A DNA stretch of 64,000 nucleotides from Cryptosporangium aurantiacum. GTDB taxonomy: Bacteria > Actinomycetota > Actinomycetes > Mycobacteriales > Cryptosporangiaceae. Of the stretch, positions 4,925-62,320 are shown piece by piece; the stretch's first letter is position 1, and every line of letters starts with the position of its first letter. The DNA lies in contig NZ_FRCS01000012.1 in NCBI RefSeq assembly GCF_900143005.1, forward strand, positions 186,001 through 250,000, written 5' to 3'. The notes below the pieces were generated by a model. The model was not told the origin of the DNA. It saw nothing but the letters and a program-made list of their open reading frames with translations, and searched no databases. The position numbers and the translations under genes were made by a program.

Positions 4925-6289
4925 ATGTTGAGCCCAGCGGAACGCCGACGAGCGCGGGACTTCAACGCGAGGGTGTCGGCCCGCCGTGGTGCCGAGCGCC
5001 GTTCTGCCGACCGGACCGCCGACCGCGCCGGCGAGCGCCGCACGATCGACCACCCCGGTCGCTCACGACATACCGGCCAGCACGCGGCCGGTCAGCACGC
5101 GGCGCCGCCGCACCCGATCGGCGTCCATCGCGCCCCGGCCGGACGCGGATCGGACGAGGTCAGCGACCTGGTGCTCCTCGCCGAACGGCTCGGGAGCGCG
5201 GGCGAGCAGGTCAAGGCGGACGACGAGTTCCGTAACCGGCTGCGGCAGCGGCTCATCGCGGTGGCCTCGGTGCACGGCATCAACGCCGAGCCCGGGTTCC
5301 GGCCGCCCCCTTCCGTCGACGTCGAGCCCGGCACACGCACGTTCCCGCTGGGCCGGCGGCGGATCCCGCGCCGCGTCACGGTGGTCAGCGGGACGCTGGC
5401 CGGGCTGGTCGCGCTGTCCGGGGTCGGATTTGCCAGCGGCGGTGCCAACCCCGGCGACGCGCTCTACGGCGTCAAACGGAGCCGTGAGGCCGCACAGCTC
5501 ACGCTGGCCCGCTCCGCGGTCGCCCGCGGGCAGCTCCACCTGGACTTCGCGCGCAACCGGCTGCAGGAGGCCGCCGCGGCCACCGGCGACCTCGCCCAGC
5601 TCGGCCGGTTGCTCGACGACATGGACAGCGACAGCCGGCTCGGGATGTCCGACCTCGGCACCGCAGCCACCACCCAGCACCACCCCGCGCCGCTCGATCT
5701 GGTGGACGAGTTCGTGGTGTCGCAGCGCCGGGGGCTGACCCGGATCGAGAAGGCGCCCGGAGCGGCACCCGCGGTCGTGCGCCGGATACACGCCTCGCGC
5801 GCCCTGCTCGAACAGATCAGCGTCCGCTCGTCCCAGGTCCGTGAGGTCCTGCACTGCACCGGGCCGTTCAACCGGGACGAGCTCGGGCCGATCGCACGCC
5901 CGTGTTCGGACACCTCCGCCGACGAATCCCGGATACCCTCGGACGAGCCGGCACCGCCGAGAGTTCCGTGGACCGAGAGTTCCCGGTCGGACAGCTCGGA
6001 CCGCACGTCCGAAACGCCGACCACCGCACCAACTGGCAGCGCAGCCAGCACCGGCCGGGTCTCCCCCGGAGCCGCAGGCCGGAAGTCCTCCGCAGCCGTC
6101 ACCGACGACGACTGGGAATCCGACCCGTCGAGTGCTGCGGAAAACCTGATCCCGCAGTCCGGATCGATCCTCCCCTCGCCGAGCACCGGGTCACCGACCG
6201 ACTCGCTGATCGGCTCCGCGGACCAGACCGTCGACAGCATCGTCGGCAGCGCGCTCACCAGTGACGTCGGAGAGGCAGGCCGGGACTGA
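4925..6289 (+). CDS. rsbN: RsbN-type membrane anti-sigma factor (DUF5667)
   Basis: Probable anti-sigma partner of the preceding BldN-like factor. An N-terminal cytoplasmic part (LSPAERRRARDFNARV, then LVLLAERLGSAGEQVKADDEFRNRLRQRL) precedes one membrane span near residues 150-175 (VTVVSGTLAGLVALSGVGFA). Outside the membrane is a DUF5667-like segment (ANPGDALYGVKRSREAAQL) and a long Ser/Thr/Pro-rich tail. Start ATG 4925 is preceded by GGAGAGGAGG about 10 bases away; an ATG at 4859 is an alternative. It lies 130 bases after bldN, most likely on the same transcript. The function is inferred from domain and position. Confidence 0.8.
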   Translation: MLSPAERRRARDFNARVSARRGAERRSADRTADRAGERRTIDHPGRSRHTGQHAAGQHAAPPHPIGVHRAPAGRGSDEVSDLVLLAERLGSAGEQVKADDEFRNRLRQRLIAVASVHGINAEPGFRPPPSVDVEPGTRTFPLGRRRIPRRVTVVSGTLAGLVALSGVGFASGGANPGDALYGVKRSREAAQLTLARSAVARGQLHLDFARNRLQEAAAATGDLAQLGRLLDDMDSDSRLGMSDLGTAATTQHHPAPLDLVDEFVVSQRRGLTRIEKAPGAAPAVVRRIHASRALLEQISVRSSQVREVLHCTGPFNRDELGPIARPCSDTSADESRIPSDEPAPPRVPWTESSRSDSSDRTSETPTTAPTGSAASTGRVSPGAAGRKSSAAVTDDDWESDPSSAAENLIPQSGSILPSPSTGSPTDSLIGSADQTVDSIVGSALTSDVGEAGRD

Positions 6290-6448
6290 ACGGGCCGCCC
6301 CGGACGTTCATTCTGCGGGCCCGCACGCCTCACGTTCTGTTGCCCCGACCGGCACAGAGCCGTTCAGGCAGCCGCCCGTAAACTGGGGCGCGGTCGCCCC
6401 CAGGGTCTACAGGCGCGTTTCTGCACGTCAGTGTTTCGGAGGTAGCGC

Positions 6449-7327
6449 GTGATCACGCTCACTAAGCGACGCCGCCGCAAGGACGCTCTGGCGGTCGTCG
6501 CCGGCGCCGCGAGCGCAGCCGCCGCCGAGGTGGAAGCACCGGCCCAGGTGGCGCCGGACCTTAGTGCTGCGGCGTTCTTCGACGTCGACAACACGATGAT
6601 GATGGGCGCGTCGATCTATCACTTCGCCCGTGGCCTCGCCGCGCGGAAGTACTTCAGCAGCCGCGACCTGTTCGGGTTCGCGGTGCAGCAGATGCGGTTC
6701 CGGATGTCCGGCGTCGAGGACGCCGCCAACATGGTGACGGCCCGCCAGGCCGCGCTCGCGTTCGTCGCCGGACGCGACGTCACCGAGATCGTCGGCCACG
6801 CCGAGGAGATCTACGACGAGGTCATGGCCAAGCGGATCTGGTCCGGCACCCGGGCGCTGGCCCAGATGCATTTGGACGCCGGTCAGCGGGTCTGGCTGGT
6901 CACCGCGACGCCGGTCGAGCTGGCAAGCATCATCGCCCACCGGCTCGGGCTCACCGGCGCACTCGGCACCGTCTCCGAGGTCGTCGACGGCAAGTACACC
7001 GGCCGTCTGGTCGGTGAGCCGCTGCACGGTCCGGCGAAGGCGGAGGCCGTGCTCTCGCTGGCGCGCCGCGAGGGCCTCGAGCTGCCTCGCTGCACGGCGT
7101 ACAGCGACTCGGTCAACGACGTCCCGATGCTCAGCACGGTCGGCACCGGCGTGGCGATCAACCCGGACTCGGCGCTGCGCCGCGAGGCCCGGGAGCGTGG
7201 CTGGCAGGTGCGTGACTACCGCACCGCCCGCAAGGCCGCCAAGGTCGGCGCCCCGGCCGTGGCCGCCGCCGGCGTCATCGCCGGCGGCGTAGCGGGCACT
7301 CTCGCCATGCGCCGAAAGATCGCCTGA
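6449..7327 (+). CDS. HAD-IB family phosphatase (SerB-like)
   Basis: 292-residue phosphohydrolase of the HAD-IB subfamily. The nucleophile motif FFDVDNT has D45 and D47, motif II is VTATP, and motif III-IV is [11 protein letters not shown], all intact. A basic Ala-rich leader (1-35) comes first, and the C-terminus is a Gly/Ala-rich hydrophobic stretch ending AMRRKIA, which may be membrane-embedded. GTG start with GGAGG at 6439-6443. Mycobacteria carry a SerB1-type gene in the same neighbourhood. The substrate is unknown; phosphoserine or a lipid phosphate are both possible. Confidence 0.85.
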
Positions 7328-7332
7328 AGCGC

Positions 7333-7370
7333 TGAACATTCTGTGCCCCTGGAGGGGCACAGAATGTTCA
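7333..7370. terminator. Perfect 38-bp palindrome, bidirectional terminator
   Basis: Arms of 18 bases (TGAACATTCTGTGCCCCT and its exact complement) separated by only GG, between the HAD gene and a convergent small gene. With no mismatch and a position six bases past a stop codon, it should terminate transcription from both sides. It lacks a U-tract, as is common in actinobacteria. Confidence 0.8.
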
Positions 7371-60423: not shown

Positions 60424-60525
60424 GTGCTCGAGACCTTCTTCCTGGTGCTGCTGATCGCGGCCTTCCTCCTCATCGCGTGGTTCGGCGCGTACGTCGTCTA
60501 CCGGCTCTATCAGGGCCAGCGCTGA
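60424..60525 (+). CDS. Small single-span membrane peptide
   Basis: 33 residues from GTG 60424: LETFFLVLLIAAFLLIAWFG makes one strong membrane span, ending YQGQR. It stops 2 bases before the GTG of the nitrobindin gene, so the two are probably translated from one message. No homologue is known to me. Real expression is inferred only from spacing and composition. Confidence 0.55.
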   Translation: MLETFFLVLLIAAFLLIAWFGAYVVYRLYQGQR

Positions 60526-60527
60526 TC

Positions 60528-61064
60528 GTGACCGATCCGGCGGGCTACCCGTACGAGGAGACCCACGACCTCCGGTCCGGGCCGAACCTGCACGAGTCGC
60601 TGCTGGGCCTGCTGCCGTTCGTCGGCCTGTGGCGGGGTACCGGCAAGGGCGGGTACCCCGACATCGAGGACTTCGACTACGCCCAAGAGGTGCGGTTCAG
60701 CCACGACGGCAGGCCGTTCCTCGCGTACGAGTCGCGGACCTGGCTCATCGACGCCGAGGGGCGGCCGATCCGCCCGGCGGCGCGCGAGGTCGGGTGGTGG
60801 CGTCCGCAGGCTGACGACTCGGTGGAGGTGCTGCTCGCGCACCCGACCGGGTTCGTCGAGGTGTACGTCGGCGAGATCGACGGGCTGAAAGTGGAGCTGA
60901 GCACCGACGCGGTCGTGCGTACCGCGACCGCCAAAGAAGTTTCGGCGAACCACCGTCTCTACGGCATCGTCGAGGGCGATCTGCTCTATGCGGTCGACAT
61001 GGCCGCAACGGGCCACGATTTGACCCCGCACCTATCCGCCCGCCTCAAGCGAATCGGCGGTTAA
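60528..61064 (+). CDS. Nitrobindin-like haem-binding protein (FABP-like, Rv0813c type)
   Basis: 178 residues, ten-stranded barrel. The GxWxGxG signature is GLWRGTGKG at about residue 37, and the proximal His candidate lies in MAATGHDLTPHLSAR. Nitrobindins bind ferric haem and react with NO or peroxynitrite. Located beside the PabC-like gene, as in mycobacteria. GTG start 60528. Confidence 0.9.
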   Translation: MTDPAGYPYEETHDLRSGPNLHESLLGLLPFVGLWRGTGKGGYPDIEDFDYAQEVRFSHDGRPFLAYESRTWLIDAEGRPIRPAAREVGWWRPQADDSVEVLLAHPTGFVEVYVGEIDGLKVELSTDAVVRTATAKEVSANHRLYGIVEGDLLYAVDMAATGHDLTPHLSARLKRIGG

Positions 61065-61100
61065 GCGCCGCCAGAGCGCGCGCATTTGTTTGAACGGGGA

Positions 61101-61199
61101 GCCCGCCCAGGGCGGGGCCTGCCGATCGGGCGCGACCGCGCCGCGTATTGGTCGTACTCAAGTGGTCGCGCCCGCTCGGCAGCGTCGTCCTGGGCGGGC
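61101..61199. terminator. Large stem downstream of the nitrobindin gene
   Basis: Outer arms GCCCGCCCAG (61101-61110) and CTGGGCGGGC (61190-61199) are perfect. Inner arms of 19 bases (61119-61137 with 61164-61182) match at 18 of 19. It follows the nitrobindin stop by 36 bases and probably ends that transcript. On the minus strand it lies just after the small-RNA terminator. Confidence 0.65.
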
Positions 61200-61206
61200 C
61201 GCCCAC

Positions 61207-61416
61207 AAAAAAAGCCCCTCGGGCTGGTTCCCGTGCTTACGCACGGGGCCGGTCGGACGAGGCCGGCAGCCCGAGGGGTCGGTGGTTACCTTGGTTTGCC
61301 TTACCGCCGTCTACGTCTCAGGCGACGGTTCGGACCGGAGTCCGATGGGCGGCTAGGAAGTAGCCACCTCACGAGTCCGATAAGTATTCAACTTTGGACC
61401 ACCTCCCCTCTCGTGT
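61207..61416 (-). ncRNA. Candidate free-standing small RNA, about 210 nt
   Basis: From a predicted start near 61416 to a T7 run (61213-61207). It ends in a strong stem CCCCTCGGGCTG / CAGCCCGAGGGG (61278-61267 with 61226-61215), with CCGTGC/GCACGG inside. Other folds: GGTGGCT/AGCCGCC (about 61369-61350), CGGAC/GTCCG and GACGG. The octamer TCGGACTC occurs twice (61380-61373, 61345-61338). No gene follows on this strand. GGGGAGG near 61408 precedes a possible TTG-initiated 12-codon frame, so a tiny peptide is possible. Family unknown to me. Confidence 0.65.
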
Positions 61417-61422
61417 AGCTCG

Positions 61423-61451
61423 AATCTACGTCGGTCTCCGAGGGTCGGCAA
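61423..61451 (-). promoter_or_regulatory. Promoter of the candidate small RNA
   Basis: TTGCCG (61451-61446), 17 bases, TAGATT (61428-61423). Near-consensus housekeeping sigma sites. It lies directly after the stop of the PabC-like gene. Confidence 0.65.
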
Positions 61452-61453
61452 CG

Positions 61454-62320
61454 CTATTTTTCGGTGTTCTCCGGGAGCGGAAATCCGAGGATTCGCTGTA
61501 CCCCTTCGGTGAGCCCGCGCTCCCCGATCGGCTTGCCGTCCAGCGCGGTGATCCGAGCCGCCCCCCGCACGCTCGAGCACAGCCACGCCTCGTCCGCCGC
61601 GTACAGATCGTCCAGGTGTGCTCGGGTGCGCTCGGCCCGCAGCCCCAGCTCACCGGCCCGGTCGAGCAGGTAGTTCACGGTGGTACCGGCGAGGATCCCG
61701 GTGTCCACCGGCACGGTCCGCAGCGCCCCGTCGGCCGCCCACACCACGGTCGCGGTCGGCGCCTCCAGCACCGTTCCCTCGACCGAGAGCATCAGCGCGT
61801 CGTCCGCGCCCGCCGCCGCGGCGTACCGCAGCGCCGCCATGTTCACCGCGTACGAGAGCGTCTTCGCGCCGCCGAGCAGCCACGGCGCTCCGGACCGCAC
61901 GTCGGCGGTCACGCCGAGCGTGACCGTCACGACCGAGATCCCGTCCCGGCGGCCCTGACGCTGCGCCGGTGAGACGTCGAACATCGTCGCGAACACGGTC
62001 GGCGGCTCCGGCTGGCCGGTGTCGGGTCCGCGCGTGCAGACGATCTTGACGCCGACCTCCTCGTCGTCCGTGGCCTCGGCGCACACCGACTCCACCAGCG
62101 CGGCCAGCTCCGAGGCCGGCGGGAGGTTGATGCCGAGGATCCGCGCCGAACCGGCCATGCGGGCCAGGTGCTCGTCCAGTTGCCAGGGTTTGCCGTACCG
62201 GACGTGGATGGTCTCGAATACGCCGTCGCCGCGGGTCAGGCCGGCGTCGTCGGCACGGGCGATGAGTGTGTCGACCGGAAGGAGACCCCGGCCGAGGACA
62301 GCGAGCGCACGGGTAGCCAT
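61454..62320 (-). CDS. Aminodeoxychorismate lyase / class IV aminotransferase
   Basis: 288-residue class IV PLP enzyme. PLP Lys in LLGGAKTLSYAVNMAAL, other parts RGDGVFETIHVRYG and EGTVLEAPTATVVW. Makes 4-aminobenzoate if PabC, for folate; D-amino-acid or branched-chain activity cannot be excluded. Mycobacterial Rv0812 is in the same spot. ATG 62320 is chosen; an in-frame start at 62446 would read through the divergent promoter. YgfZ (folate-binding) lies two genes away, which supports a folate link. Confidence 0.88.
   Translation of the reverse strand: MATRALAVLGRGLLPVDTLIARADDAGLTRGDGVFETIHVRYGKPWQLDEHLARMAGSARILGINLPPASELAALVESVCAEATDDEEVGVKIVCTRGPDTGQPEPPTVFATMFDVSPAQRQGRRDGISVVTVTLGVTADVRSGAPWLLGGAKTLSYAVNMAALRYAAAAGADDALMLSVEGTVLEAPTATVVWAADGALRTVPVDTGILAGTTVNYLLDRAGELGLRAERTRAHLDDLYAADEAWLCSSVRGAARITALDGKPIGERGLTEGVQRILGFPLPENTEK

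Follow-up and report, generated by a model that had tools for sequence, protein, structure and literature searches.

Near one end of the analysed stretch of DNA (64,000 nt, hereafter the window) a GC-rich segment of the minus strand raises two questions: what kind of RNA is encoded there, and what could such an RNA do? The initial annotation had proposed a free-standing structured RNA of about 210 nt with its own promoter and terminator, had regarded it as a candidate for an undescribed element and had named raiA-type RNA or the 6S-like Ms1 RNA as possible relatives. The first part of this proposal is supported and the rest is not. The covariance model of Rfam family RF02471 (Ms_IGR-5) matches positions 61416-61207 of the minus strand over its full length (model positions 1-184) with 77.5 bits against a cut-off of 45, in agreement with the proposed size. 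It is the sole Rfam match across the whole window, and the genome to which the window belongs holds a single RF02471 match. The window RNA is a full-length member of this catalogued actinobacterial sRNA family. Between 61150 and 61500 no other Rfam family was found at E-values up to 1, and an identity as raiA, Ms1 or 6S RNA was rejected because the respective covariance models have no match there.

The signals on either side of the RNA were inspected separately. The promoter hexamers read from the sequence, TTGCCG (61451-61446) and TAGATT (61428-61423), stand ahead of a start-like A at 61416 of the minus strand. A pair of TTG and TAnnnT with a spacer of 17-18 nt occurs at the right place in 50 of the 87 distinct homologues (mean 0.35 and maximum 2 in shuffled upstream DNA), and the other 37 are without a pair under this strict rule. 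The comparison thus supports the promoter, although a promoter scan of 60900-61700 listed none; the hexamers match 8/12 by manual count and the threshold of the scan was 9/12. The strong stem and the run of seven T that had been noted at the other end were picked up by the terminator scan (stem 61225-61213, T7 61213-61207). The predicted fold has an energy of -99.1 kcal/mol, against a mean of -79.3 kcal/mol in 200 shuffles (z -4.3; none of the 200 as low). The duplicated octamer, TCGGACTC, is indeed present twice: the first copy is the segment shared by the reading frame and the pseudoknot described below, the second lies in the middle part of the RNA, where the sequences of the homologues vary. 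The features are collected in the table.

Table. Features of the RF02471 RNA and its promoter in the window.
Feature	Position	Strand	Basis
Promoter, TTGCCG, 17-nt spacer, TAGATT	61423..61451	-	Sequence and homologue comparison
RNA, RF02471 (Ms_IGR-5), full length	61207..61416	-	Covariance-model score 77.5 bits, cut-off 45
P1, 5' strand (CACG)	61412..61415	-	Pairs with 61373-61370
SD1, 16-nt complement to the 16S 3' tail (AGAGGGGAGGUGGUCC)	61396..61411	-	Comparison and predicted duplex
Mini-ORF, TTG start 61391-61389, 12 codons (M N T Y R T R E V A T S), TAG 61355-61353	61353..61391	-	
Pseudoknot, 5' segment (UCGGAC), inside the frame, codons 4-6	61375..61380	-	
P1, 3' strand (CGUG)	61370..61373	-	Both-sides changes
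SD2, GAGGUG, 9 nt ahead of the stop	61365..61370	-	Spacing kept in homologues
P3, 5' strand, end of the frame	61359..61368	-	Homologue swaps; one mismatch in the window
P3, 3' strand (GGUAACCACC), directly before the terminator	61281..61290	-	Also paired in the MFE fold
Pseudoknot, 3' loop (GUCCGA), within the terminator structure	61253..61258	-	
Branched GC-rich terminator hairpin and T7	61207..61278	-	Sequence, fold, terminator scan

Homologues were collected with two models. The Rfam model recovered the RNA, with one match each, in 54 of the 61 genomes around the window, and across the phylum it matched 57 of 296 genomes, 26 of them above the cut-off. We fetched 93 of the 103 distinct hits, leaving out 10, and these comprise 86 distinct sequences when compared over the first 70 nt and 87 over 75 nt. 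From an alignment (A1) of 71 of the 73 5' domains (L089 and L092 were left out) a model of the 5' domain, R1, was built. In a phylum-wide search R1 matched 148 of 396 genomes, and within the class 162 of 246, usually with a single match per genome; some of these genomes had themselves supplied R1. The R1 matches that were read consisted of the listed loci and 60 more; seven of the loci L117-L234 did not fit the pattern used for parsing. The resulting held-out set contains 86 sequences, and the comparisons below rest on up to 172 distinct sequences. In a scan of named genomes at least 71 loci, out of 80 among the matches listed, scored 35 bits or more with R1, and these R1-supported loci stem mainly from Acidimicrobiia and Thermoleophilia MAGs. 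Two further Actinomycetota MAGs (L303, L305) carry divergent forms that score 23-24 bits with R1 and have no Rfam match, so that the family appears to reach beyond both models.

In the window the RNA is preceded on the same strand by an aminotransferase class IV (pabC-like) gene, with a Fur-family gene beyond it, and the nearest downstream gene, nitrobindin-like (PF08768), is convergent. Directly ahead of the latter we noticed a 33-codon GTG frame (60424-60525, plus strand) whose product (LETFFLVLLIAAFLLIAWFGAYVVYRLYQGQR) resembles a small membrane protein; a similar end (YVVYRLLKD) is present in the flank of one other locus (L047). Among the 93 loci, with flanks of 1.5 or 3 kb, pabC was found upstream in 25 (24 in the order of the window) and nitrobindin downstream in 24 (all in that order), and elsewhere other genes are adjacent, for instance ligA or gyrA (names read off translations). 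The earlier statement that the RNA has no protein to lead holds for the window, and the neighbourhoods of the homologues point to no single cis target. A link with tRNA or tmRNA was also considered and rejected: such genes occur in 5 of 37 scanned loci and in none overlap the RNA.

The 5' part of the homologues reads approximately GARAGGAGGUGGUCC and is complementary over 15-16 nt to the 3' tail of 16S rRNA, for which we took the sequence GGAUCACCUCCUUUCU as the presumed reference; 12 of 18 genomes contain this tail, two of them from the genus of the window, and it found no match in the draft genome of the window itself. Positions -4 to +10 of this element, SD1, pair with the tail in 85-86 of 86 distinct sequences, and where SD1 departs from the majority base the pairing is mostly kept (71 of 74 non-majority bases in the 86 sequences) by A or G opposite U and C or U opposite G. 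Pooled with the held-out set the count becomes 117 of 121, which is not independent since the pattern by which that set was parsed, and thereby partly selected, demands part of SD1. The predicted duplex of SD1 with the tail has an energy of -29.2 kcal/mol, against -22.6 kcal/mol for the next best place on either strand of the window. A 14-nt match by itself proves nothing, since the SD pattern occurs at three sites in the own genome and its reversed control likewise at three. The comparison is what shows the 5' part to be a maintained complement of the 16S tail, at which a ribosome would be able to dock.

Directly behind SD1 a short reading frame was found. When the first NTG after the SD is taken as start, 80 of 87 distinct sequences reach a conserved stop (mean 10.5, maximum 22 in 1000 shuffles), and six more do so from AUU or AUC, which brings the frame to 86 of 87 with L045 as the sole exception. 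In the held-out set 76 sequences reach the conserved stop from the first NTG, nine more use AUU, AUC or AUA, and L207 has a UUG one base earlier. Under the permissive rule the pooled set has the frame, ending at the fixed stop, in 170 of 172 distinct homologues; the other exception, L216, is truncated by the end of its contig, and a separate reading of the held-out set gave it an AUU frame. The starts among these 170 are TTG (98), ATG (37), GTG (14), CTG (8), ATC (8), ATT (4) and ATA (1), hence other than AUG in 133, the stops are TAG (146), TGA (19) and TAA (5), and the length is 10-17 codons. Within the 12-codon class internal stops are absent from all 87 sequences, where column permutation would predict 7.9 sequences with one, and the other two frames are interrupted in 25 and 85 of the 87. 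The comparison shows that the RNA contains a conserved mini-ORF, which is presumably translated.

The peptide encoded by this frame differs between classes (RTREVAVR, GTLEVTGR, GPREVTGC, VTVEVMRR, SGGGSS). A second element, SD2 (GAGGUG), lies 8-9 nt ahead of the stop in 167 of 170 homologues (9 nt in 157, 8 nt in 10). In 12 of the 170 GAGGUG is read in another frame and stands 8 or 11 nt from the stop, with start-to-stop intact, which suggests that more depends on the frame than on the peptide and that the distance between SD2 and the stop is probably kept for its own sake. A start-proximal extended SD together with a weak start codon is also a property of the infC-type sites, with AUU or AUA as start, in the accessible part of PMC13009471; those sites start real proteins, whereas the window RNA has a frame of 10-17 codons in a stand-alone RNA.

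Three pairings connect these elements. Helix P1 links the 5' end of the RNA to the segment preceding GAGGUG, and each of its four pairs changes on both sides in some homologues (48 cells vs 8.3 in shuffles). A further helix, P2 (GUCC/GGAC), is not claimed, as 91% of its cells are paired but none shows a both-sides change. P3 is a long-range pairing of the end of the frame with CAGYCACC, which adjoins the terminator; at least 8 of 9 pairs form in 66 of 87 sequences (partners swapped between homologues: mean 46.4, maximum 57). The pseudoknot joins the middle of the frame to the terminator structure, and its partners shift jointly in other groups (GUGACC/GGUCAC, GCGACC/GGUCGC, AGACC/GGUCU). It has 5 bp or more in 121 of 172 homologues (swap mean 64.4, maximum 72) and 6 bp or more in 63 of 172 (swap mean 20.3, maximum 29), counts that include some short matches elsewhere as the partner was sought anywhere in the 3' region. 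P1, P3 and the pseudoknot thus appear to have comparative support, measured against shuffles and swaps that do not remove relatedness. When P1 and P2 are taken together, however, the number of pairs with a both-sides change is not above shuffles (4 vs 3.4; 212 of 500). The Rfam consensus leaves the P1 bases unpaired and instead pairs positions 14-19 with 55-60, a 5' helix that is partly non-standard in the window, whereas our comparison favours P1 and P3. A conserved protein frame had been mentioned as something that could explain away the conservation of the interval: such a frame exists, but it is not the sole explanation because at the RNA level the 16S complement, P1, P3 and the pseudoknot are all maintained, and the peptide is not conserved.

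Transcription of homologues has been reported before. As far as the accessible parts of these sources go, the homologue of S. lividans has RNA-seq support (PMC8079986), that of S. avermitilis matches an sRNA transcription unit (PMC8780764), that of M. smegmatis overlaps ncMSMEG15794c (PMC10454040, which also names Ms1), and the M. abscessus and M. smegmatis homologues show ribosome-protected reads (PMC4974804), where the authors describe footprints on other non-coding RNAs too. In the literature searched no function, frame or 16S complementarity was found for Ms_IGR-5. To the catalogued family the present analysis adds a mini-ORF, complementarity to the tail of 16S rRNA, three pairings (P1, P3 and the pseudoknot), a broader distribution and similar-looking loci outside the phylum.

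The reading that we favour, at about even confidence, is that of a free-standing, mRNA-like regulatory RNA that engages ribosomes and acts as a switch. P1, P3 and the pseudoknot would keep the free RNA closed, and a 30S subunit could use its 16S tail to capture the loop in which the SD complement lies. Initiation at the weak codon would be slow; if it succeeds, the translating ribosome would unwind the pseudoknot, P1 and P3, reach the stop and be held there by SD2. By docking, unwinding and holding at the stop, the shape of the RNA would report whether ribosomes initiate, elongate and terminate, and the RNA may act in trans, either because it holds ribosomes or because the C-rich 3' strand of P3 is set free. 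Instead of serving translation, the strong SD might inhibit it. Comparable systems each share a part of this scheme. The bar minigenes of lambda have a very short frame behind an SD, and this is the single feature in which we liken them to the window RNA. 6S RNA and Ms1 mimic the substrate of a core machine; unlike these, with which it shares no Rfam match, the window RNA would have the ribosome rather than RNA polymerase as target.

Another arrangement, which we consider unlikely, is a pure ribosome decoy that titrates 30S subunits through the 16S complement and damps translation, the frame being a safe exit. It would account for the complement and for a frame that is kept while its peptide is not, and it has a precedent in SprF1 of Staphylococcus aureus, which binds ribosomes by its purine-rich 5' end and lowers initiation (PMC8938821, accessible part). 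The window RNA resembles SprF1 as a small RNA whose purine-rich 5' end, here the 16-nt complement with its predicted -29.2 kcal/mol, could meet the ribosome, but SprF1 is an antisense antitoxin, and a mini-ORF, SD2 or pseudoknot is not described for it in that part of the source. A decoy leaves the pairing of the pseudoknot with the frame, P3 and the fixed distance from SD2 to the stop unexplained, and with one copy per genome it would need high expression.

Two other readings are quite improbable. The locus could be a micropeptide gene whose 9-17-residue product is the active part, as start, frame and stop are kept and certain peptide ends do not vary inside a group (TREV, GGARRG); the constant residues coincide, however, with SD2, P1 and P3, the sequence changes from class to class, the homologues that read SD2 in another frame argue against it, and the long 3' structure would be superfluous for a peptide. 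Just as doubtful is an ordinary antisense sRNA that pairs with mRNAs through its purine-rich or C-rich parts and in which the frame is merely protective: a free-standing sRNA with a terminator and a C-rich P3 strand adjoining it would suit such a role, but what varies least is the stretch that fits the 16S tail, where every variable position tolerates G-U, and the conservation of the frame would be left unexplained. A leader or attenuator of a neighbouring gene is very improbable and was rejected, for although an attenuator is likewise built from an SD, a mini-ORF, alternative pairings and a terminator, and one Planctomycetota locus has a release-factor-2-like gene downstream, the next gene in the window is convergent and the homologues have no fixed downstream gene.

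The proposed switch RNA may have counterparts outside the Actinomycetota, where phylum labels are given as deposited and MAGs may be mislabelled. The scan of named genomes also matched, among the matches listed, records of SAR86, Truepera, Planctomycetota and Gemmatimonadaceae, and none of ten such outlying loci (two of them labelled Actinomycetota) reaches an Rfam cut-off. In a pattern search 19 of 246 Planctomycetota genomes matched, and 31 of 111 Deinococcota genomes did so partly at the level of the reversed control, since many genomes of 2.0-2.4 Mb, perhaps Thermus-like, match the pattern about as often as that control. The pattern requires both SD elements, so only the frame, the stop and the T-run are independent evidence: 28 of 33 loci read have a mini-ORF with its stop 5-11 nt past the second GGAGGUG (shuffled spacers: mean 6.5, maximum 13), and 13 of these 28 are followed by a T-run. 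The mini-ORF is present in 15 of the 20 Planctomycetota loci read, five of them nearly identical, with frames that end RRWLS-like; the other five (L394, L397, L399, L405, L406) look like chance matches inside genes. In the Deinococcota, of which 10 loci were read, the frames end GGARRG-like and start with AUC, AUA, AUU or CUG. Putative elements of the same layout thus occur in Planctomycetota, Deinococcota and one Gemmatimonadota record, labels that may be wrong. In the Planctomycetota locus L300 an ORF that is release-factor-2-like by translation (6162-7364) lies about 150 nt past the RNA-like element.

Several other matches were noted. Two SAR86 loci (L236, L237) have the same layout with GGAGGUGCCUUCUGAC, which to us recalls SD-stimulated frameshift sites; they stand alone in the Gammaproteobacteria, where 1 of 229 genomes matched, that one being the SAR86 seed itself. 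The layout is absent from a Clostridium locus (L268). Four loci labelled Acidobacteriota, Acidobacteria, Eisenbacteria and Chlamydiae (L252, L297, L310, L311) score 48-68 bits with R1 and may be MAGs that are mislabelled or contain foreign contigs. Among 38 viral stretches that match a pattern the best scores 22.8 bits with R1 (L381, 2470-2535, E 3.8e-4) and the others at most 19 bits; all of these, L381 included, are probably chance matches, as the stretches were chosen by the SD pattern.

In sum, an sRNA catalogued as "non-coding" combines a reading frame that is conserved with complementarity to the entire 16S tail and with a pseudoknot that ties this frame to the 3' part. Its function thereby becomes directly testable in laboratory Streptomyces, and the combination suggests an RNA class that reports on, or acts through, the ribosome. 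Look-alikes also occur in phyla where the loci that were scanned have no Rfam match, which points to an RNA that has been overlooked and may be ancient. Tentatively, and with the balance somewhat against it, we propose that an old class of ribosome-sensing RNAs spans several phyla, with RF02471 as its actinobacterial branch and further members in Planctomycetota, Deinococcota and Gemmatimonadota. Each member would have a docking site for the 16S tail, a mini-ORF, a structured 3' part and an internal SD placed to meet the ribosome as it terminates. If this is true, the class would stand to the small ribosomal subunit as 6S RNA stands to RNA polymerase.
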